Shown here: positions 1 to 7,967 of the stretch, piece by piece | How the letters are laid out: the number at the start of each line of letters is the position of its first letter | Position numbering within the stretch: position 1 is the stretch's first letter | Source of the DNA: Devosia sp. Root413D1 | GTDB taxonomy: Bacteria > Pseudomonadota > Alphaproteobacteria > Rhizobiales > Devosiaceae | Assembly (NCBI RefSeq): GCF_001425235.1 | Contig: NZ_LMEA01000012.1 | Span: 286,391-350,390 of the forward strand | Length of the DNA: 64,000 nucleotides | Direction: 5' to 3' | Program-made: the position numbers and the translations under genes | Notes under the pieces: generated by a model | The model's database searches: none | Seen by the model: only the letters and a program-made list of their open reading frames with translations | What the model was told of the DNA's origin: nothing

Positions 1-569
1 CCAGCCAGCAACGGCGTCAGGACATTGCCGATGAGGCCGTGGCCGAAGAACACCGGCAGCACGCAGAGCGTTTCGCGCAGCACCTTGGGGCCGATCTCGG
101 CGATGTTCAGCGCGGCGCGGGCGAACAGGCTCCGCACCGAATGCACGATGCCCTTGGGTCGGCCGGTGGTGCCCGAAGTCATCAGGATGAGCGCCGGATC
201 ATCGAGGCGCAGCGGCGCAGGTCGGGCGGCGCCCGATATTTCCACGCGCGGCCGCTGCGGCCCGAGCCATAGCGATGCACCGGTGGTCTCGAGCACGTTC
301 TCGCATTCTTCCGGCCGAAGGCCCGGATTGACCGCCACCGCGATGAGTCCGATCTCCCAGCAGGCAAAGATGGCGATCAGGTAATTGACCGGGTTGACCT
401 CGGCCACTACCGCCCGAGCGCCGGGCGCTACCCCGTGGTGCGAGAGCTCGGCAGACTTCTCCTTCACCCGCCCCCGGATACCCCCGGCGTCAAGCGCCAT
501 GCCGGTCCGGACGTCGACGAGGGCCGCGGTTGCCGGAAGCATGGCGGTGAAGGAGAGATTGCCGATCAT
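1..569 (-). CDS. AMP-forming acyl/aryl-CoA ligase-like enzyme, N-terminal part (runs off left edge)
   Basis: Member of the ANL superfamily, which activates a carboxylate as an acyl-adenylate. Only the first 189 codons are in the window, and the 3' part lies before base 1. The P-loop signature TSGTTGRPKG is at about residues 130-139, followed by a normal AMP-binding continuation (FFGHGLIGN). The ATG at 569 overlaps the stop of the nucleotidyltransferase gene (ATGA), so translation is probably coupled. It is the last visible gene of the RiPP-like operon. I infer that it activates a carboxyl group for attachment to, or release from, the peptide. Substrate class cannot be read from this fragment, and an unrelated fatty-acid or aromatic-acid ligase remains possible. 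Confidence 0.85.
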   Translation of the reverse strand, partial: MIGNLSFTAMLPATAALVDVRTGMALDAGGIRGRVKEKSAELSHHGVAPGARAVVAEVNPVNYLIAIFACWEIGLIAVAVNPGLRPEECENVLETTGASLWLGPQRPRVEISGAARPAPLRLDDPALILMTSGTTGRPKGIVHSVRSLFARAALNIAEIGPKVLRETLCVLPVFFGHGLIGNVLTPLLA

Positions 570-1537
570 CCAGCGCCTCGTGGCACGATGCGCTGCAGGC
601 CGCGGAAGCTGTGGCGGCGGACTTTCGAGAGGAAAGCCGTCGGCGCGGCCAGCACCGCCGCGCCATCGACAAGCCGCGTCGCGAGGCTGCTGGCGCTGCC
701 GCCGGCGATGCGACCGGCAGCGGCGCCGGCCCCGGGGACCTCGAACAGCGCGGCGACCAGCTCGAGGCAGAGGCGCGCCTCGAGGCCCAGACCCAGCCGG
801 CGCGCCATCTCCGGCAGGTCGGTCACCTCATCGGGCGTGAGATGGCGAAAGGCTTGCAGCACGTCGACCAGCAGGCGGAGCTGGTGGAACTTGTGGCCGA
901 GCGCGGCATGGACCACTGCCACGAAGAACTGCGGCAGACCGGCGCTCGCGTTGCCATGGCCACTGGCCATGAACTCGCCATAGCCGAAGCTGACGCGCCG
1001 GCGCAGCCCCTGATAGTGCACCAGGTTGCCGTGCACTTCGATCAGCAGTGCATCCATGTCGGGCTGGATCCACTTTTCTTCCTGGTTCTGCTCGGTGTGA
1101 TCGAGCAGCGGCTTGCGGAACAGCTGGTAGCCCAGCCCGGTCAGCAGCTCGCCGATCGGGGCGCGGGCCGAGGGCGCGACCATGATGTCGATATCGGTGA
1201 ACGGACGATCTGACGGCGTCGGGTAGAGCTGGCGCGCGAAGACCGGGCCTTTGACGATCACCGCCTCGAGCTGCCTCTCGGCAATGTAGCGGTCGACCTT
1301 GGCGGCGATGCCGCGTAGGTGCATCGACAGGCCGACGAGCACCGTCAACTCGCTCTGCGCCACCCTGAGGTCGCCACTGCTGTGCTGCGCCGCGAGCTTG
1401 CGGGTCACTACCGGCAGGACATTGTGATCGCGCGCCAGCTTGAGCAGCCGATCAACGGCGACGGCCGGCACGGCGGCAGCGGCCGCCTCAGGGTCGGCCA
1501 GCCGACATAACAGCTTGTCGAGCTCGGCCGCCATCAT
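566..1537 (-). CDS. nucleotidyltransferase family protein (NTP_transf_5 / PF14907 type) of RiPP cluster
   Basis: Protein of 323 residues. The diagnostic core is KGP at residues 96-98 and the metal-binding DIDIMV at 115-120, typical of the uncharacterised nucleotidyltransferase family found in lasso-peptide clusters that also carry a kinase. A His/Trp-rich middle (EEKWIQPDMD) and a helical C-terminal half follow. The start at 1537 overlaps the stop of the kinase gene (ATGA), and the stop overlaps the next start (ATGA). Family knowledge suggests transfer of a nucleotide or phosphate-containing group. The inferred target is the phosphorylated precursor peptide or a small ligand. Function is unproven. 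Confidence 0.85.
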   Translation of the reverse strand: MMAAELDKLLCRLADPEAAAAAVPAVAVDRLLKLARDHNVLPVVTRKLAAQHSSGDLRVAQSELTVLVGLSMHLRGIAAKVDRYIAERQLEAVIVKGPVFARQLYPTPSDRPFTDIDIMVAPSARAPIGELLTGLGYQLFRKPLLDHTEQNQEEKWIQPDMDALLIEVHGNLVHYQGLRRRVSFGYGEFMASGHGNASAGLPQFFVAVVHAALGHKFHQLRLLVDVLQAFRHLTPDEVTDLPEMARRLGLGLEARLCLELVAALFEVPGAGAAAGRIAGGSASSLATRLVDGAAVLAAPTAFLSKVRRHSFRGLQRIVPRGAG

Positions 1538-2529
1538 GCGGTGATCTTCTGGATATTGAGCGCTGCCAGCATGACGGATGCCAGGTCGGTCGGGTTGGAC
1601 CCGGCGGCCAGCCGATAAGTCGGCACGGCGCGCACCAACTCGCCGAGCCGCTTGAATAATTCGCGTTCGTCCTCGGACACGCCCGTGCGGGTGGAGCGCA
1701 GGTTGTCTGCAGCTGCGAGGGCAAGCACCTCGGCCTTGCTGGTTGGCGCGCAACGGCTCGCCGTCACGCCACTGCGTTCGAGCACGAAGACAGCGGCGAT
1801 CTCGCGGGCGGCGATGCTCTCGACACTGACGGTGGTGCGAAGCGCCGACAGGGTCACCGGCCGCTCGTCCTCGACGCTCCAATCGCCGCTCAGCAGCGGC
1901 TGCACCCAGGGCAGCATCTCGGCGGTGCGGCGATGGACCTTGAGGCTTCGAGGCATGCCCCAGGCGGTCGGGCGATCGCCACTGACGTTGCACGCCATCG
2001 CATCATCGGAGCAAAGGCCTAGCCCGCCCGCTGCAAGAGCGAGGGTCGAGGTGGTCTTGCCGGCGCCGCTCTTGCCGAAAATCAGCGCTACGCGGCCATC
2101 CGGCAGGGTCAATCCCGCGGCGTGCACCAGAAACTGCTTTGCGGCGATGAGCGCCGCCTGCAGCGCAAGCTGCCCGCAAGTCATGACGATGCGCTCTTCG
2201 GCGCCCGGCGCCACGGTGATGGTGGCCTCTCGCGCCTTGTCGGAGAGAGTCAGCGAGATGACGCCGGGGAACACCAGGGTGCGCCCTTCCGGGCCCTGCC
2301 AGAAGCAGGCCTCGCCCTCGTCGAGGATCGGCCCTTCGTAGAGCGGATCGGTTCCCTCGGGCATCGATAGCGGTTCGCCGGAGATGATGGTCAGGCCATA
2401 GGCCAGCGGTGCGGTCGGCAGCGGACGCGAGCGGCCGGCAAAGATGCGGCCGTAGCAGTCGACCAGCACCGGCGAAATCGCGGACACCCGCAGGGATGCG
2501 CCCTGCAGATCGAAGAATTTCTGAATCAT
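1534..2529 (-). CDS. HPr kinase-like peptide kinase (HprK-related)
   Basis: Protein of 331 residues with an HprK-type P-loop GKSGAGKTT at residues 152-160. It is preceded by the strand FLVHAAGLTL (133-142) and followed by LCSDDAMAC (172-180), the usual positions for this fold. It lacks any PTS-type partner gene nearby. In lasso clusters, HprK-like kinases (ThcoK, PadeK type) phosphorylate a Ser/Thr hydroxyl of the precursor, and the predicted cores upstream are Ser/Thr-rich. I infer a peptide kinase. The ATG at 2529 overlaps the stop of the B2 gene (ATGA). The N-terminal 130 residues are divergent and may bind substrate. Confidence 0.87.
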   Translation of the reverse strand: MIQKFFDLQGASLRVSAISPVLVDCYGRIFAGRSRPLPTAPLAYGLTIISGEPLSMPEGTDPLYEGPILDEGEACFWQGPEGRTLVFPGVISLTLSDKAREATITVAPGAEERIVMTCGQLALQAALIAAKQFLVHAAGLTLPDGRVALIFGKSGAGKTTSTLALAAGGLGLCSDDAMACNVSGDRPTAWGMPRSLKVHRRTAEMLPWVQPLLSGDWSVEDERPVTLSALRTTVSVESIAAREIAAVFVLERSGVTASRCAPTSKAEVLALAAADNLRSTRTGVSEDERELFKRLGELVRAVPTYRLAAGSNPTDLASVMLAALNIQKITA

Positions 2530-2999
2530 GCTCGGGCTCCCCGCGGGTCGTGATGGTCGAGCGCCGGAGCGGCGTGGACGTGGATCTGCACCTGGCCGGG
2601 AATGCTGGCGTTGATGACTTCGACACCGTCGAGCGTCACCCAGCAATGGGCGGAGAGGCGCGGCTTGCCGACCGATTTGGGGTCGACGGAGAAATGCAGT
2701 TTCGGATCATAGCCGCAGCGCCGGAGTGCGGCGAAGCCGACCAGCCCGGTCCGGAGGCAACGGTTGTTGCGCATCAGGATCGGCCATCGCGCCACACGGC
2801 CTACCCGTTTGGCAATATAGGGCACTGGAAATCGCGGCCAGGTATCGGGCTGAGCCGACGAAGCTTGTACCAGGATCCCGGAGAAGCTGCGGCCGGCGAT
2901 ACGAGCTGGAAGCGTCCGTGCGCTCAGCCACAGCCGCAGGCGAAACACCAGCCGATCGAGAGCTTGTGGAGCGGGCGCGTCGGCTGCCTCAGGCGGCAT
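2526..2999 (-). CDS. lasso-type B2 leader peptidase (transglutaminase-like fold)
   Basis: Protein of 157 residues resembling the lasso peptide biosynthesis B2 protein, a cysteine protease that removes the leader peptide. The Cys-His-Asp triad is visible: C81 in NRCLRTG, H118 in SAHCWV, D124 in LDGV. Length is normal for a stand-alone B2. The start at 2999 overlaps the end of the PqqD-like gene by 11 bases, and the stop overlaps the kinase start (ATGA). It should act with the PqqD-like protein as a split B1/B2 pair on the precursors encoded at 3319-4311. No B3/C asparagine-synthetase-like cyclase is seen in the window. Confidence 0.88.
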   Translation of the reverse strand: MPPEAADAPAPQALDRLVFRLRLWLSARTLPARIAGRSFSGILVQASSAQPDTWPRFPVPYIAKRVGRVARWPILMRNNRCLRTGLVGFAALRRCGYDPKLHFSVDPKSVGKPRLSAHCWVTLDGVEVINASIPGQVQIHVHAAPALDHHDPRGARA

Positions 3000-3258
3000 G
3001 CACGATGATGCCTTCTGAGATCAGTTCGGCAATCAGTTCGGGGAGGTCCTCAGCCAGCGTCGCCGGCTCGACTTCGAACTCGGCAGCCATGCGTTGGGCT
3101 ACGTCCTCGACGTTGCGGACGCCATCCAGGTTCCGCAGGAAGCAAAGCGACGACTCGTTGCAGGTATAGAGTTGGCCGCTGCCGAGCAGCAGAATCACAG
3201 CCCCCTCGCCCACTGGTTCGAACGACACTTCGTCACCAAGGCGATACACTGCATCCAT
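2989..3258 (-). CDS. PqqD-like RiPP recognition element (lasso B1-type)
   Basis: Protein of 89 residues with a PqqD-family winged-helix pattern: a beta hairpin with LGSGQLYTCNESS, a helix around LRNLDGVRNVEDVAQRMAAE and an acidic C-terminal helix. PqqD/RRE domains bind leader peptides and deliver them to the peptidase. The lasso B1 form recognises a Y-x-x-P-x-L leader motif, which is exactly what the adjacent small peptides carry. The gene is 60 bases downstream of the last precursor and overlaps the B2 gene, so it is the first enzyme gene of the operon. Confidence 0.87.
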   Translation of the reverse strand: MDAVYRLGDEVSFEPVGEGAVILLLGSGQLYTCNESSLCFLRNLDGVRNVEDVAQRMAAEFEVEPATLAEDLPELIAELISEGIIVHAA

Positions 3259-3318
3259 CTACGCACCACAGTCGAAAAACAGAACGGTCAGAGTCCGGAG
3301 AACCGGCCCCTGAACAGA

Positions 3319-3408
3319 TCACATAGCACTCTTGCTGCTAGTCGCAGCGACAACTGCGGTCAGCCGCTGTTGCTTGGTGAGGGTCGGCTTGGAATAGATC
3401 TTCTTCAT
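3319..3408 (-). CDS. RiPP precursor peptide copy 1 (29 aa)
   Basis: Peptide of 29 residues starting MKKIYSKPTLTK and ending TSSKSAM. It shares the family leader Y-x-K-P-x-L-x-K-x-Q-x-L. At the conserved Thr position it has Val (AVVA instead of xITA), the only intact copy to do so. After the presumed leader end (VVA) the core would be ATSSKSAM, 8 residues with no acidic residue. A GGGAG ribosome site lies 8 bases upstream of the ATG. It is the copy closest to the PqqD-like gene. Confidence 0.8.
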   Translation of the reverse strand: MKKIYSKPTLTKQQRLTAVVAATSSKSAM

Positions 3409-3453
3409 GGTCGTGCTCCCTGCCCGAAGGGCCTACCTCTCGCTCAGACCCAA

Positions 3454-3549
3454 TCAAGGCGGCGGCGAGTTGCTCGGGATCGAGGCAGTGATCAAGCTCA
3501 GCCTCTGCTCTTTGACCAGCGTCGGCTTGATGTAGGTCTTCTTTTTCAT
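3454..3549 (-). CDS. RiPP precursor peptide copy 2 (31 aa)
   Basis: Peptide of 31 residues beginning MKKKTYIKPTLVKEQRL, with one extra Lys before the Tyr motif compared with the other copies. Leader end is LITA, and the predicted core is SIPSNSPPP (9 residues, proline-rich, no Asp/Glu). GGGAG is 7 bases before the ATG. The gap to copy 1 is 45 bases. The homology to its neighbours is direct from the sequence. The cleavage point is inferred from the lasso rule that a conserved Thr sits at the penultimate leader position. Confidence 0.8.
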   Translation of the reverse strand: MKKKTYIKPTLVKEQRLSLITASIPSNSPPP

Positions 3550-3703
3550 ATTCGCTCCCAACGGCCTGCTTACGAGGGCCACCGGGTAACGCTAGCATGA
3601 CCGCGCCGAGGCCGAAACCCTCGTCACCGTGACATCCACCTATTGAGGCCGCGGAGATCAGGACTGTGTTCAGCCGCCAGCGATCGGGTCTTGCTGCCGG
3701 CGG

Positions 3704-3770
3704 CTAAGCCCGTGACCCGTTAAGCGTCTGCTGCCTGGCGAGCGCCGGCTTGGCATAGGTCTTCGTTCAT
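3704..3770 (-). pseudogene. Frameshifted RiPP precursor copy 3
   Basis: Read from the ATG at 3770, this gives a non-homologous 16-residue peptide. Shifting by one base from position 3763 restores the family sequence KTYAKPALARQQTL and ends at TAG (3704-3706) after NGSRA. The start region reads ATGAACGAAGACC where intact copies read ATGAAGAAGACC, i.e. one extra base. The core also lacks the xITA junction and is shortened. GGAGG stands 3 bases before the ATG. I call it a decayed copy. A sequencing error would fix the frame but not the missing junction. Confidence 0.7.
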
Positions 3771-3850
3771 GACCTCCAATGCCAGAAGCCAGTACAAATA
3801 GCAGAAGCCGCGGTGACGGAAGCCAGCGGTACAGCTGAGACGGATGGGCT

Positions 3851-3940
3851 TCAGCGCGACGTACTGGCGGCTGGCGCAGCAGTGACCAAAGTCAGCTTCT
3901 GCCCTTTGATGAGCGTCGGTTTGCTGTAGGTCGTCTTCAT
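3851..3940 (-). CDS. RiPP precursor peptide copy 4 (29 aa)
   Basis: Peptide of 29 residues beginning MKTTYSKPTLIKGQKL. Leader end is LVTA and the predicted core is APAASTSR. An alternative start two codons upstream (MTMK..., 3946) is possible. The open frame extends further up to 4042, but only the last 29-31 residues align with the family, so the short start is chosen. No acidic residue occurs anywhere in the peptide. Confidence 0.8.
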   Translation of the reverse strand: MKTTYSKPTLIKGQKLTLVTAAPAASTSR

Positions 3941-3998
3941 GGTCATCCCGAAATCCGAGTGCCGTGCGAACCCAGGCGATCTGGCCTGCCGGCTCGGA

Positions 3999-4091
3999 TC
4001 AGCCTGGCTTGCTATTGCTGCTGACCGCCGCAGTGATCGCACTCAGCTTCTGCACCTTGACGAGAGCCGGCTTCGCATAAGTCTTCTTCAT
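3999..4091 (-). CDS. RiPP precursor peptide copy 5 (30 aa)
   Basis: Peptide of 30 residues beginning MKKTYAKPALVKVQKL. Leader end is AITA and the predicted core is AVSSNSKPG. It is the copy closest to the family consensus, and its leader is also closest to the decayed copy 3 (both have YAKPAL), which suggests a recent duplication. A GGGGAC stretch precedes the ATG. The gap to copy 4 is 58 bases. Confidence 0.82.
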   Translation of the reverse strand: MKKTYAKPALVKVQKLSAITAAVSSNSKPG

Positions 4092-4215
4092 GTCACGTCC
4101 CCATCTACGCCCCAAGGCGGCAGCGTCAGGCTAACAGAACCAGCAAGACTTAGAAAACTTACTTCTTGCCTTTGTCACACGAAGGAAGGCCGGAGCGGGC
4201 CCCGGCCCCTCCAGA

Positions 4216-4311
4216 TCACGTGGGGTTGTGCTTGCTGGTGACCGGCTCGGCGGTAATGGCTGTGAGCTTCTGCTGCTTGACGAGCACAGGCCTAGAATAG
4301 GTCTTCTTCAT
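4216..4311 (-). CDS. RiPP precursor peptide copy 6 (31 aa), first in the array
   Basis: Peptide of 31 residues beginning MKKTYSRPVLVKQQKL. Leader end is AITA and the predicted core is EPVTSKHNPT (10 residues). It is the only copy with an acidic residue after the leader, at core position 1, which cannot serve as the lasso ring acceptor at 7-9. It ends in Thr, the type of C-terminal residue known to be phosphorylated in some kinase-containing lasso systems. GAGG lies about 7 bases upstream of the ATG, immediately after the hairpin at 4321-4348. Confidence 0.82.
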   Translation of the reverse strand: MKKTYSRPVLVKQQKLTAITAEPVTSKHNPT

Positions 4312-4392: not shown

Positions 4393-4623
4393 CTAGGGTT
4401 TGCGGTAGAACATCACCCGTTGGGCGAGCTGGGTGCCGTCGAAGCGCGTTACTTCGGCGACCAGGTTGCCGAAATGGCCGTTCAGCATCAGGGGTTCGTC
4501 GGTCAGTTGACGCGCCGCCGACATCGGTTCAGGCGCCTCGACCGTCTGCGGCAGGCTGACGCTGGGTGGCTTGGCCCGGAAGTCGTAGAGCGTGACGGTA
4601 TATCTGGGCATCGTCATTTCCAT
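4393..4623 (-). CDS. Small hypothetical protein (76 aa)
   Basis: I do not recognise this protein. It begins MEMTMPRYTVTLYDF and ends VMFYRKP, with an alternating beta-strand-like N-terminus and no membrane segment or signal peptide. Internal starts at 4617 (MTMP) and 4611 (MPRY) are possible, and GGAA precedes the latter. It is followed by a hairpin/T-tract and then by the precursor array in the same direction, and it diverges from macA. Whether it belongs functionally to the RiPP system is unknown. Confidence 0.55.
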   Translation of the reverse strand: MEMTMPRYTVTLYDFRAKPPSVSLPQTVEAPEPMSAARQLTDEPLMLNGHFGNLVAEVTRFDGTQLAQRVMFYRKP

Positions 4624-4792
4624 CGCCTGAATTCAGATTGCGATAGCCGACGATAGCGAAGCCTAGCTGACAGTTGGCTGAACCGACCCGACCTTGCGAA
4701 GAATTCACCCACCTTACCAAGCTCTAATGCGACGTCTTGACCGGTGCGCTCTACTTTAAGCGCAATGGGTATTGGGCTTCGAAGGTGCGGCG

Positions 4793-6004
4793 ATGAAGCG
4801 GTGGTTGAAATGGATCGTCCTCGTGGTGCTGCTCGGCGCGGGCGGCGCCGGCTGGCTGGTGTTCAGTGTACCTGCCAAGGATGAGGTGCCACGCACAACG
4901 CCGGTGGCGCGCGGCACTATCGAGGAGACGGTGCTCGCGTCCGGGGTGATCCAGGCCAGTTCGCTGGTCAGCGTCGGCGCCGAAGTTTCGGGTCGGATCA
5001 AGACGCTCAATGTTCAGCTCGGCGACGACGTGAAGGCCGGCGACGTGATCGCCGAAATCGACTCGCTGAACCAGCAGAACGCGGTGAAGGCGGCGCAGGC
5101 CTCGCTCGCCAATACCGAGGCGCAGAAGACCATCCAGACCGCTAACCTCGGACAAGCCAAGACCGCCCTGGACCGGGCCGAGAAGCTCAGCCCGCAAAAG
5201 CTGATCTCGGACGCCGACCTGCAGACGGCGCAACTGGCGGTGCAGACGGCCGAAGGCCAGTTGCAGGCGATCGAGGCGCAGATCCAGCAGGCCCAGATCA
5301 ATGTCGAAGCGGCGGAGCTGAACCTCGACCGCACCAAGATCGTGGCCCCTTCCGACGGCACGGTGGTCGCCGTGTCGGTGGAGGTCGGGCAGTCGGTCAA
5401 CGCCAACAATTCGTCGCCGACCATCGTCAAGCTCGCCAACCTCGACAAGATGGTGGTGAAGGCCGAGATCTCGGAGGCAGACGTGCCGCGGGTTGAACCG
5501 GGACAGCTGGTCTATTTCACCATCCTCGGTGACCCGGATACCCGCATCAACGCAACGCTCCGCGCGGTCGAGCCGGCGCCGGATTCGATCGCCTCGGACG
5601 ACACCACATCGAGCTCATCGAGCACTGCAGTCTATTACAATGGTCTGTTCGACGTGGATAACCCCGGCCATAGGCTGCGCATCTCGATGACGGCACAGGT
5701 GACGATCGTGCTGAAATCGGCCGATGACGTGCTGACGGTTCCGGCCTCGGTGCTCGGCCGCAAGGGCCGCGACGGCAGCTACACGCTTCAGGTGTGGGAC
5801 CAGCAGAAGGAGGCGGCCGAGCCTAAGCAGGTCACCATCGGGCTCAACAACAACGTGACGGCGGAAGTGCTCTCGGGCCTCGACGAAGGCGATCTGGTGG
5901 TCAATTCCACGGCAGCCGCTCCGGCGGCCCGCAACGGTAACGGCCAGGGCGCCAACCGGAACATCCTCGCCGGCGGCGGCCCGCCGGGCGGGTTCGGGCG
6001 CTGA
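4793..6004 (+). CDS. macA: MacA-like periplasmic adaptor (HlyD/RND-type membrane fusion protein)
   Basis: Protein of 403 residues. An N-terminal membrane anchor (WIVLVVLLGAGGAGWLVF) is followed by a lipoyl/barrel-sandwich half, a long coiled-coil hairpin rich in Ala/Gln (about residues 90-175), the second lipoyl half with PSDGTVVAVSVEVGQSV, a beta-barrel and a Gly/Asn-rich C-terminus. The adaptor links MacB in the inner membrane to an outer-membrane channel. Start 4793 is chosen because GAAGG ends 7 bases upstream. It is 10 bases from macB. It lies divergent from the RiPP cluster, so export of that peptide is a reasonable but unproven inference. Confidence 0.88.
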   Translation: MKRWLKWIVLVVLLGAGGAGWLVFSVPAKDEVPRTTPVARGTIEETVLASGVIQASSLVSVGAEVSGRIKTLNVQLGDDVKAGDVIAEIDSLNQQNAVKAAQASLANTEAQKTIQTANLGQAKTALDRAEKLSPQKLISDADLQTAQLAVQTAEGQLQAIEAQIQQAQINVEAAELNLDRTKIVAPSDGTVVAVSVEVGQSVNANNSSPTIVKLANLDKMVVKAEISEADVPRVEPGQLVYFTILGDPDTRINATLRAVEPAPDSIASDDTTSSSSSTAVYYNGLFDVDNPGHRLRISMTAQVTIVLKSADDVLTVPASVLGRKGRDGSYTLQVWDQQKEAAEPKQVTIGLNNNVTAEVLSGLDEGDLVVNSTAAAPAARNGNGQGANRNILAGGGPPGGFGR

Positions 6005-6014
6005 GGCCGCGGCG

Positions 6015-7967
6015 ATGACCGAACCGCTGATTTCCATCCGGCAACTGCGCCGGGAGTATCCGATCGGGGCCGAGAGCATCACGGTGCTCAGGGATATCGA
6101 CCTCGACATCGCGGCCGGGGAGATGATCGCCATCATCGGCCAATCAGGCTCGGGCAAGTCGACGCTGATGAACGTGCTGGGCTGCCTCGACAATGGCTGG
6201 ACCGGCGAATATCGGCTGGCCGGACGCGACATCGCGCGGCTCCAGCCCGATGAGCTGGCCGAACTGCGCCGCGAGTATTTCGGCTTCATCTTCCAACGCT
6301 ACCAGCTGCTGGCCGATCTCGATGCGCTCGAGAATGTCGAGGTGCCGGCGATCTATGCGGGCGCCCGGAAACAAGCGCGGCGGGAGCGGGCCCACCAGCT
6401 GCTGGAACGGCTGGGGCTGGGTGAGCGCCTGACGCACCGGCCGAACGCGCTGTCCGGCGGCCAGCAGCAGCGCGTCAGCGTGGCCCGAGCGCTGATCAAT
6501 GGCGGCGAGATCATCCTCGCGGACGAGCCGACCGGAGCGCTCGATTCCAAAAGCGGCAAGGAGCTGATGGCGCTGCTCAAGGAGCTCAACGCCGAAGGCC
6601 ACACCATCATCATCGTTACCCACGATCCGACCGTCGCGGCTGAGGCCGACCGGGTGGTGGAGCTGAGCGACGGCGTGATCGTCGCCGACCGGCGCAAGGA
6701 TGAAACTGCCCCGCCGGTGCAGAAGGCCGCGGAGACGATCAGGCGGGTCCCGCGCTGGCGCGAGGCGCTGGACCGGGTCGGCGAGGCGTTCCAGATGGCG
6801 CTCAGGGCGCTGTCGAGCCATCGGCTGCGCACCTTCCTCACCATGCTCGGCATCATCATCGGCATCGCCTCGGTGGTGTCAGTGGTGGCGCTGGGGCAAG
6901 GCAGCCAGCAGACGGTACTCGACCGGATCAGCTCGATCGGCACCAACACCATCAACGTCATGCCCGGCACCAGCGCTGCGGACCGGCGGCGCGATGCGAT
7001 CCGCACGCTGGTGCCGGCGGATGCCGCGGCCATTGCGGCCGAGAAATTCGCCGACAGTGTGACGCCGCAGGTGTCGAGCAGCGGCCAGGCGCGCTATCGC
7101 AATGTCAGCGCCGCAGCGCAGATCCAGGGCGTCGGCGCCGACTACTTCCGGGTGAACAACCGCAGCTTCGTCGAAGGCGCAGCCTTCGATGCGGCCAGCA
7201 CCAGTGCGCTGGCGCAGGTGGCGGTGATCGACACCACGGCGCGCGACACGCTGTTCACCAATGGCGAAGATGCGGTCGGGCAAGTGGTGCTGGTCGGCAA
7301 CGTGCCGCTGAGGATCATCGGCGTAGTGGCGGCGAGCACCAACAATTTCGGCCCGCAGTCGAGTTCGATCAGCATCTGGATGCCCTACACCACGGCGATG
7401 TCGCGGATCCTGGGGCAGAGCTGGCTCTCGAGCATCACCGTCCGCATCGCCGACAGCGCCGATGTCACCGAGGCACAGGCGGAGATCCAGGCGCTGCTCG
7501 AGCAGCGGCACGGCACGGTGGATTTCAGCCTGCAGAACACCGACACGATCCGCGAGACCATCCAGTCGACCTCGCAGACCCTGACGCTGCTGATCTCGGC
7601 GATCGCGGTGATCTCACTGATCGTCGGCGGCATCGGCGTGATGAACATCATGCTGGTGTCGGTACGCGAGCGGACCCGGGAGATCGGGGTGCGCATGGCG
7701 GTCGGGGCACGGCAGGGCGATATCCTGCAGCAGTTCCTGATCGAGGCGGTGCTGGTCTGCCTGATCGGCGGCACGGTGGGCGTTCTGCTGTCACTGGGGA
7801 TCGGTTTCGGCGTCGAGAAACTGGTGAGCGGGCTCAGCTTCATCTACTCGCCGACGACAATCATCGCGGCGTTCGTCTCGTCGAGCCTGATCGGCGTGCT
7901 GTTCGGCTTCATGCCGGCGCGTTCGGCAGCGCGGCTCGATCCGGTGGTGGCGCTGGCCAGCGAGTGA
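6015..7967 (+). CDS. macB: MacB-like ABC exporter, fused ATPase-permease
   Basis: Protein of 650 residues with the usual MacB order. The N-terminal ATPase has Walker A GQSGSGKS (about residues 42-49), signature LSGGQQQR and Walker B ILADEPTGALD. Then comes a first membrane helix (LTMLGIIIGIASVVSVVALG), a large periplasmic domain (about 300-520) and three C-terminal helices with VRERTREIGVRMAVGA. It works with MacA by mechanotransmission to export peptides, macrolides or lipids. No outer-membrane TolC-like gene is adjacent. Start ATG at 6015, 10 bases after macA. Confidence 0.92.
   Translation: MTEPLISIRQLRREYPIGAESITVLRDIDLDIAAGEMIAIIGQSGSGKSTLMNVLGCLDNGWTGEYRLAGRDIARLQPDELAELRREYFGFIFQRYQLLADLDALENVEVPAIYAGARKQARRERAHQLLERLGLGERLTHRPNALSGGQQQRVSVARALINGGEIILADEPTGALDSKSGKELMALLKELNAEGHTIIIVTHDPTVAAEADRVVELSDGVIVADRRKDETAPPVQKAAETIRRVPRWREALDRVGEAFQMALRALSSHRLRTFLTMLGIIIGIASVVSVVALGQGSQQTVLDRISSIGTNTINVMPGTSAADRRRDAIRTLVPADAAAIAAEKFADSVTPQVSSSGQARYRNVSAAAQIQGVGADYFRVNNRSFVEGAAFDAASTSALAQVAVIDTTARDTLFTNGEDAVGQVVLVGNVPLRIIGVVAASTNNFGPQSSSISIWMPYTTAMSRILGQSWLSSITVRIADSADVTEAQAEIQALLEQRHGTVDFSLQNTDTIRETIQSTSQTLTLLISAIAVISLIVGGIGVMNIMLVSVRERTREIGVRMAVGARQGDILQQFLIEAVLVCLIGGTVGVLLSLGIGFGVEKLVSGLSFIYSPTTIIAAFVSSSLIGVLFGFMPARSAARLDPVVALASE

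Follow-up and report, generated by a model that had tools for sequence, protein, structure and literature searches.

The left end of a 64,000-nucleotide stretch of the Devosia sp. Root413D1 genome (assembly GCF_001425235.1, contig NZ_LMEA01000012.1, forward-strand positions 286,391 to 350,390, or G000:C12:286391-350390 in our numbering), hereafter the window, carries on its minus strand an array of tiny precursor genes and an operon whose enzymes point to a ribosomally synthesized and post-translationally modified peptide (RiPP). The initial annotation had described five intact precursor copies and a broken one, upstream of genes for a RiPP recognition element (RRE), a B2 peptidase, a kinase, a nucleotidyltransferase and a ligase. 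Open reading frames, tblastn and the DNA itself all agree with this description. The operon runs on beyond window base 1, where coordinates are those of L003, a piece of the same contig. The features are the following:

4216 to 4311, minus strand: precursor copy with leader MKKTYSRPVLVKQQKLTAITA and predicted core EPVTSKHNPT (open reading frame, profile match, Shine-Dalgarno-like GAGG in the DNA)
3999 to 4091, minus strand: precursor copy, predicted core AVSSNSKPG (open reading frame, profile match, Shine-Dalgarno-like run)
3851 to 3940, minus strand: precursor copy, predicted core APAASTSR, the sole window core without Ser-Gly/Lys/Asn (open reading frame, profile, Shine-Dalgarno-like run)
3719 to 3770, minus strand: broken precursor copy with frame-shifted leader and no core (tblastn match KTYAKPALARQQTLN at 3719-3763, and the DNA)
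3454 to 3549, minus strand: precursor copy, predicted core SIPSNSPPP (open reading frame, profile match, Shine-Dalgarno-like run)
3319 to 3408, minus strand: precursor copy, predicted core ATSSKSAM, with Val instead of Thr at -2 (open reading frame, profile match, Shine-Dalgarno-like run)
2989 to 3258, minus strand: PqqD-like discrete RRE (B1-like), predicted binder of the YxxPxL leader (Pfam PqqD, 50.2 bits, 3.2e-13; aligned with 19 relatives)
2526 to 2999, minus strand: B2-type leader peptidase (Transglut_core3, 1.7e-11; lasso B2 model NF033537, 44.3 bits against a cut-off of 33)
1534 to 2529, minus strand: putative HprK-like peptide kinase (HprK family models, at scores far under their cut-offs, and a 20-row alignment)
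566 to 1537, minus strand: PF14907 nucleotidyltransferase-like protein, start at 1534 or 1537 (NTP_transf_5, 1.4e-22)
1 to 569, minus strand: N-terminal part of an AMP-forming acyl ligase (AMP-binding, 3.6e-27), whose gene continues left to L003:13178 (G000:C12:285568)
L003:12603-13181, left of base 1: GCN5-related N-acetyltransferase (GNAT) beyond the ligase and overlapping it (Acetyltransf_3, 35.7 bits)
L003:12392-12613, left of base 1: acyl carrier protein (ACP) beyond the GNAT, with WDSL motif (PP-binding, 19.7 bits, just below the cut-off of 20.8)
4772 to 7967, plus strand: divergent MacA-like and MacB-like exporter genes adjoining the array (Pfam HlyD_D23 and MacB_PCD)

The five intact precursors are 29-31 residues long and share the leader Y-x-[KR]-P-x-L-x-K-x-Q-[KR]-L, with G preceding Q in one copy. 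By eye, a Shine-Dalgarno-like run precedes all five, between -15 and -4, a pattern shown by 110 of the 898 minus-strand ATGs of the window. We rejected the idea that these are chance open reading frames, as array and operon, with conserved leaders, recur in three further species within the genus. The gene overlaps in the initial annotation are real: PqqD and B2 share 11 bases, ATGA links B2 with HprK and nucleotidyltransferase with ligase, and the HprK/nucleotidyltransferase junction is also ATGA if the second start is moved one codon earlier, to 1537 (GCATGATGG), with which the original count of three such junctions holds. The gene after the ACP is convergent and encodes an enzyme of Cys/Met metabolism. 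A minus-strand reading frame of 76 residues (window 4393-4623) separates the array from the MacAB-like genes; it has no Pfam match, and a similar start is present in the related locus L025. A single N occupies L003:14000, the base left of window base 1, within the ligase gene.

Distribution of the cluster

Relatives were gathered by kinase similarity. Within the family, 4 of 136 genomes, that of the window included, have a kinase match of at least 291.6 bits, and all four carry the precursor array and the genes for PqqD, B2, HprK, nucleotidyltransferase, ligase and GNAT; the ACP is present as well, in G088 without its middle part. The 397 genomes of the order, Hyphomicrobiales, yielded 19 further matches to the kinase profile (1e-10), with PqqD, B2 and nucleotidyltransferase alongside in 16; L066-L068, kinase matches without PqqD, B2 or nucleotidyltransferase, were dropped before counting. 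This gives 20 loci, four from the family and 16 from the order, and PqqD, B2, HprK and nucleotidyltransferase are found in every one of them. A scan of named genomes found at least five loci among the matches listed, in a Rhizobiales metagenome bin, another bin assigned to Hyphomicrobiales and three records of Mesorhizobium.

The kinase search of 385 genomes of the class returned the window's own kinase alone, and in a second one, across 299 genomes of the phylum, nothing outside the order scored above 53 bits. Distant members may have been missed in both, because just five to seven candidates were scored per genome. The window kinase had no match in the plasmid collection. Another species of the genus has an apparent operon remnant (L027:9771-10720, G097), with pieces of GNAT and ACP and only the start of the kinase.

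Cyclase search and gene trees

In the window genome, the asparagine synthase family (PF00733, E limit 0.001) has a single match, a protein that we take to be MnmA. The initial annotation had proposed a search for a cyclase left of base 1; none was found there, and the operon continues with GNAT and ACP. A lasso cluster with its cyclase just outside the window was therefore rejected. Among the 20 cluster genomes, 10 have no PF00733 match above 37 bits (G000, G086, G088, G101, G291, G406, G499, G370, G509 and G263), where the identity of the short matches was read for that of G000 alone. The other 10 do carry a full-length match, which in five (G267, G202, G237, G356 and G337) is separated from the kinase gene by about 10-30 kb; in the remaining five it is on a different contig or, in G177, about 685 kb off. 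The proposed search for genomes with the same gene set minus the cyclase thus found the four-gene set in 20 Hyphomicrobiales genomes, half of them without a full-length match.

The five nearby matches belong to lasso-type clusters with their own kinase and nucleotidyltransferase, about 10-30 kb from the cyclase-free cluster (L110 in G267, L115 in G237, L116 in G202, L119 in G356 and L120 in G337; the Pfam scan covers that of G267). These five relatives are probably Mesorhizobium. In G267 the lasso-type cluster is separate, with its own PqqD, B2, NTP_transf_5 and ABC transporter by Pfam, plus a kinase match, and its precursor has a 24-residue core (GGGGNTATDVSFPAHTPIGDLTFS) with Asp9 and a C-terminal Ser. 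This precursor serves as an internal control, as it shows a true lasso substrate from the same genome; no precursor was found for the cyclase-free cluster of G267. The neighborhood of the two cluster types makes avoidance of crosstalk between the pathways directly testable. It also echoes the pairing of clusters for Linear Polyphosphorylated Peptides (LPP) with lasso clusters in Bacillota. The LPP cluster (lpp) of Paenibacillus alginolyticus, published in May 2026, is a cyclase-free phosphopeptide RiPP cluster with RRE, HprK-like kinase and NTP transferase (PMC13381572).

Gene trees separate the proteins of the cyclase-free loci from the comparison rows, which are other homologues from the order; the tree program warned of long branches. 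All members of the 20 loci lie on one side of a branch in the trees of HprK (20 cluster and 11 comparison rows, support 100/100), B2 (20 and 9 rows, 99/99) and PqqD (20 and 9 rows, 99/98). The same holds for the nucleotidyltransferase (19 and 7 rows, 100/100), whose copy in L058, cut by the contig end, was excluded from alignment and tree. Because the loci were gathered by kinase similarity, selection accounts for part of the separation in the kinase tree; PqqD, B2 and nucleotidyltransferase were unselected. The comparison rows are tagged lasso, with PF00733 in the same stretch for L110 and L115-L120 only, while L112-L114 carry the tag alone. One B2 (L111:8398-8892, G210:C3) groups with the lasso-side B2s; its contig has no PF00733 match, and no PqqD, kinase or nucleotidyltransferase match lies nearby. 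Therefore, not every cyclase-less B2 belongs to this family.

The loci could still be lasso clusters that have lost their cyclase or have it encoded elsewhere in the genome, given that RRE, B2, kinase and nucleotidyltransferase all have homologues in lasso clusters and that a cyclase-like gene lies about 10-30 kb off in 5 of the 20 genomes. We consider this highly improbable. The window genome offers no candidate and 10 genomes have no full-length match, G267 keeps a lasso cluster with a precursor of its own, and the trees part the two sets of proteins. Moreover, the predicted cores do not suit a lasso ring: with G509 left out, 39 of 43 cores have at most 12 residues, and Asp or Glu as ring acceptor at positions 7-9 occurs in 5 of all 44 cores and in none of the five window cores, as the initial annotation had stated for the latter. 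Cores this short and the failure to find a cyclase make ring formation improbable. The lack of a cyclase match and the occurrence of the four-gene set across Hyphomicrobiales support the original idea of a non-lasso RiPP system that is built from lasso-type parts and yields short linear peptides.

Core peptides, enzymes and a possible pathway

Searches with a leader pattern, a profile and looser criteria brought the number of precursors to 44, from 16 of the 20 loci; the leader/core borders were set by hand. Every core contains Ser, and in 40 of the 44 a Ser is followed by Gly, Lys or Asn, compared with a mean of 13.3 and a maximum of 24 in 2000 shuffles. The sample leans slightly towards the motif, because the L052 precursor was found by a pattern that demanded Ser and because the search profile was built on whole precursors. 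Without L063 (G509), the motif is present in 39 of 43 cores, and the median core length is 9 residues. When one core is drawn per genus (8 genera), the mean count of the motif is 6.64 versus 1.88 after shuffling, and shuffles reach the observed value in 0.3% of draws. The last residue is never Ser (0 of 44 cores), so the paeninodin-type site is absent. Thr is at position -2 in 31 of the 44 leaders. In L055, about 1.4 kb from the cyclase-free cluster, a protein of 131 residues (L055:4857-5252, minus strand) has a KPYHKPTL-type leader, then DVTA, fused to a Peptidase_S74 domain (chaperone of endosialidase), possibly a very different kind of precursor.

Ser and the residue after it are the most strongly kept feature of the cores, and the other core residues are variable. 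This would fit a peptide that is a mere scaffold, from which the modified Ser, or Ser-Lys, is later excised as a small molecule, as in RiPPs like pyrroloquinoline quinone (PQQ). We think this unlikely, as the operon genes include no other recognisable peptidase.

Alignments of the enzymes show invariant residues in the kinase (H136, S154, G157, K158, T160, D175 and D176; 20 rows), B2 (C81 and H118; 20 rows) and the nucleotidyltransferase (K95, G96, D114 and D116; 19 rows). Their catalytic roles are presumably those typical of the respective families, and these residues fit working enzymes. All 20 relatives match the lasso B2 model NF033537 at E 0.01 or better. With regard to the HPr-rel-A system (NCBIfam TIGR04352/TIGR04353), the window kinase scores far under the cut-off and the window PqqD has no match to TIGR04353, which 1 of the 20 relatives matches at E 0.0016. 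A search of PDB sequences with the kinase profile found HPr kinases (best E 1.8e-4), and one with the ligase (L024 copy) oxalyl-CoA and fatty acyl ligases; in the same collection, GNAT and B2 had no matches and the nucleotidyltransferase two chance-level ones only. A second NTP_transf_5/HprK-like pair is encoded in the same genome (L004, G000:C9:50001-69000), among genes that by eye resemble glycosyltransferases.

Together, these data make it probable that the loci are cyclase-free RiPP clusters for linear, Ser-phosphorylated peptides that are freed by B2, perhaps with decoration of the phosphate by the nucleotidyltransferase and, in three genera, with acylation. We infer the chemical steps, cleavage site, export and function; gene content, its recurrence, the lack of a cyclase match, the conserved residues and the conserved core Ser are observed. 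The PqqD-like protein would bind and present the YxxPxL leader of several tiny precursors, as lasso and LPP RREs suggest. The HprK-like kinase would phosphorylate the conserved core Ser, perhaps repeatedly. Phosphorylation at this residue is supported by conservation of the motif and by analogy: LppK phosphorylates core Ser3, and S3A, S3T and S3Y abolish phosphorylation (PMC13381572), while BsfK, together with an RRE, phosphorylates Ser3 of a lasso precursor (PMC10368454). More tentatively, the PF14907 protein might add a nucleotide or sugar to the phosphate, since hexoses on phosphoserine depend on PsmN, which acts directly or by first adding a nucleotide (PMC9266682). B2 would then cleave, probably behind the Ala of ITA/VTA, and so separate the leader from a linear peptide of mostly 6-12 residues. 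With several core sequences per strain, a small family of products would be expected.

In the window genus and two others, the AMP-forming ligase would load an acyl group onto the ACP, from which the GNAT would transfer it to the peptide; a core Lys or the N-terminus left by cleavage may be the acceptor site. Ligase, GNAT and ACP occur together in five loci of three genera (G000, G086, G101, G177 and G290, the ACP of G290 by eye). A role of the ligase had been suspected before, and the gene does belong to the operon. The further idea that it caps the peptide directly has lost ground, because GNAT and ACP follow it, making acyl transfer likelier. Of 22 cores from the six genomes with ligase and GNAT, 20 contain Lys, compared with 8 of 21 from the other genomes, G509 excluded; this comparison, which is confounded by kinship, suggests Lys as acyl acceptor.

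The MacAB-like pair is a possible export route. Such genes are beside the array in L025 and, by protein similarity, in L024 also, and in L026 a different gene adjoins the array, with about 1.5 kb of contig before it. This is weak evidence, because gene order around the array is conserved in L024 and L025 anyway and L026 has another neighbor. Alternatively, the product may stay with the cell as a surface or regulatory phosphopeptide, with the nucleotidyltransferase linking peptide to glycan via the phosphate. The pair in L004 and the location of LPP clusters in capsule loci (PMC13381572) speak for this model. Beside the window cluster no glycosyltransferase was recognised by eye, although no family search of all neighbors was made, and we assign the model a rather low probability.

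Several observations weigh against linear, phosphorylated and partly acylated peptides. The kinase matches HprK models weakly: all 20 kinases match TIGR04352 at E 0.01 or better, but that of the window scores 22.5 bits where the cut-off is 200. Three of the 20 loci (L050, L051 and L054) yielded no precursor, L055 has the odd one only, and the doubtful L063 precursor (G509) would have a core of 83 residues. In 13 of the 44 leaders position -2 is not Thr but Val (nine leaders), Ala (three) or Ser (one). Fourteen of the 20 loci, among them L058, which runs to a contig end, gave no match for ligase or GNAT; G263 is without either gene, yet all four of its cores contain Lys. Finally, LppN was inactive in its own study and deletion of lppN caused no visible change (PMC13381572), which makes the nucleotidyltransferase step uncertain; it is less well founded than the kinase step, which has a fairly good basis with LppK and BsfK as precedents.

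For the product class as a whole we can make only a tentative suggestion, namely that these Hyphomicrobiales RiPPs are linear, mostly 6-12 residues long, with Ser-linked (poly)phosphate plus nucleotide or sugar, and in some cases an acyl group supplied by ligase and ACP. The ligase-ACP-GNAT module predicts phosphopeptides that bear an acyl group, and acyl-phospho(nucleotidyl)peptides are a chemical type that we did not meet in those parts of the RiPP literature compared here. With cores of about nine residues, the clusters would also offer a minimal set of natural substrates on which to test HprK-like peptide kinases and PF14907 proteins, the latter being poorly understood.

Comparison with known peptide systems

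Lasso peptide clusters share the discrete RRE and the B2 peptidase with the cluster described here, but not their macrolactam cyclase, nor a ring-acceptor core with room for a tail. The Bsf lasso peptides of Bradymonas have B1, B2, HprK-like kinase and nucleotidyltransferase in common with it, and the Val(-2) of some leaders resembles the Ile or Val at that position in phosphorylated Bsf-type precursors; Bsf differs from our cluster by its cyclase and its ABC transporter (PMC10368454). HprK-like kinase and nucleotidyltransferase are also shared with the lasso peptides paeninodin and pseudomycoidin, in which, in contrast to the situation here, the C-terminal Ser is modified and a cyclase is present (PMC8498205, PMC9266682).

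As for acylation, RiPPs with acylated Lys or ornithine side chains include the selidamides, where GNATs act (PMC9505594), and albusnodin (PMC9266682). The association of GNAT-type or acetyltransferase enzymes with RiPPs is thus a common trait, whereas the scaffolds differ and a dedicated AMP ligase and ACP are not named for either group in the parts of these two papers used.

The closest likeness is to the LPP cluster (PMC13381572). Both systems have a discrete RRE, a YxxP leader, an HprK-like kinase and an NTP transferase, lack a cyclase, and have a Ser near the N-terminus of the core as kinase site, established for LPP and predicted here. Lasso clusters often accompany such clusters in one genome; here at least 5 of the 20 genomes contain both. 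The differences concern leader removal, export, substrate size and taxonomy. The leader peptidase of LPP is LppS, a SipW-like signal peptidase, in whose place we find B2; no signal peptidase I or SipW-like enzyme is among the operon genes scanned, with the rest of the genome not searched for signal peptidase I. LPP clusters contain an MsbA-like transporter, which is likewise not among the operon genes scanned here, where the neighbor is MacAB-like. LPP precursors have 35-200 residues, with a 45-residue core in the one studied, compared with a median core of 9 residues here, often in arrays. LPP is called restricted to Bacillota, while the present clusters are from Hyphomicrobiales and include an acylation module in some genomes.

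Within the literature on lasso kinases and nucleotidyltransferases, cyclase-free lasso-type systems, phosphopeptide RiPPs of Rhizobiales and acylated RiPPs, as far as the parts used extend, only PMC13381572 describes such a cyclase-free system, and earlier notice elsewhere is possible. The novelty implied by the initial annotation therefore has to be narrowed: cyclase-free phosphopeptide RiPPs had already been published, and what sets the present clusters apart from LPP is B2, the far shorter cores, an operon lacking an MsbA-like transporter, and the optional acylation module. The cluster is LPP-like in its logic, fails the features that define lasso peptides, and is a variant of the cyclase-free phosphopeptide RiPPs. 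If our reading is correct, such RiPPs are not peculiar to Bacillota, and Hyphomicrobiales have a separate, coherent group that employs a lasso B2 on minimal substrates.

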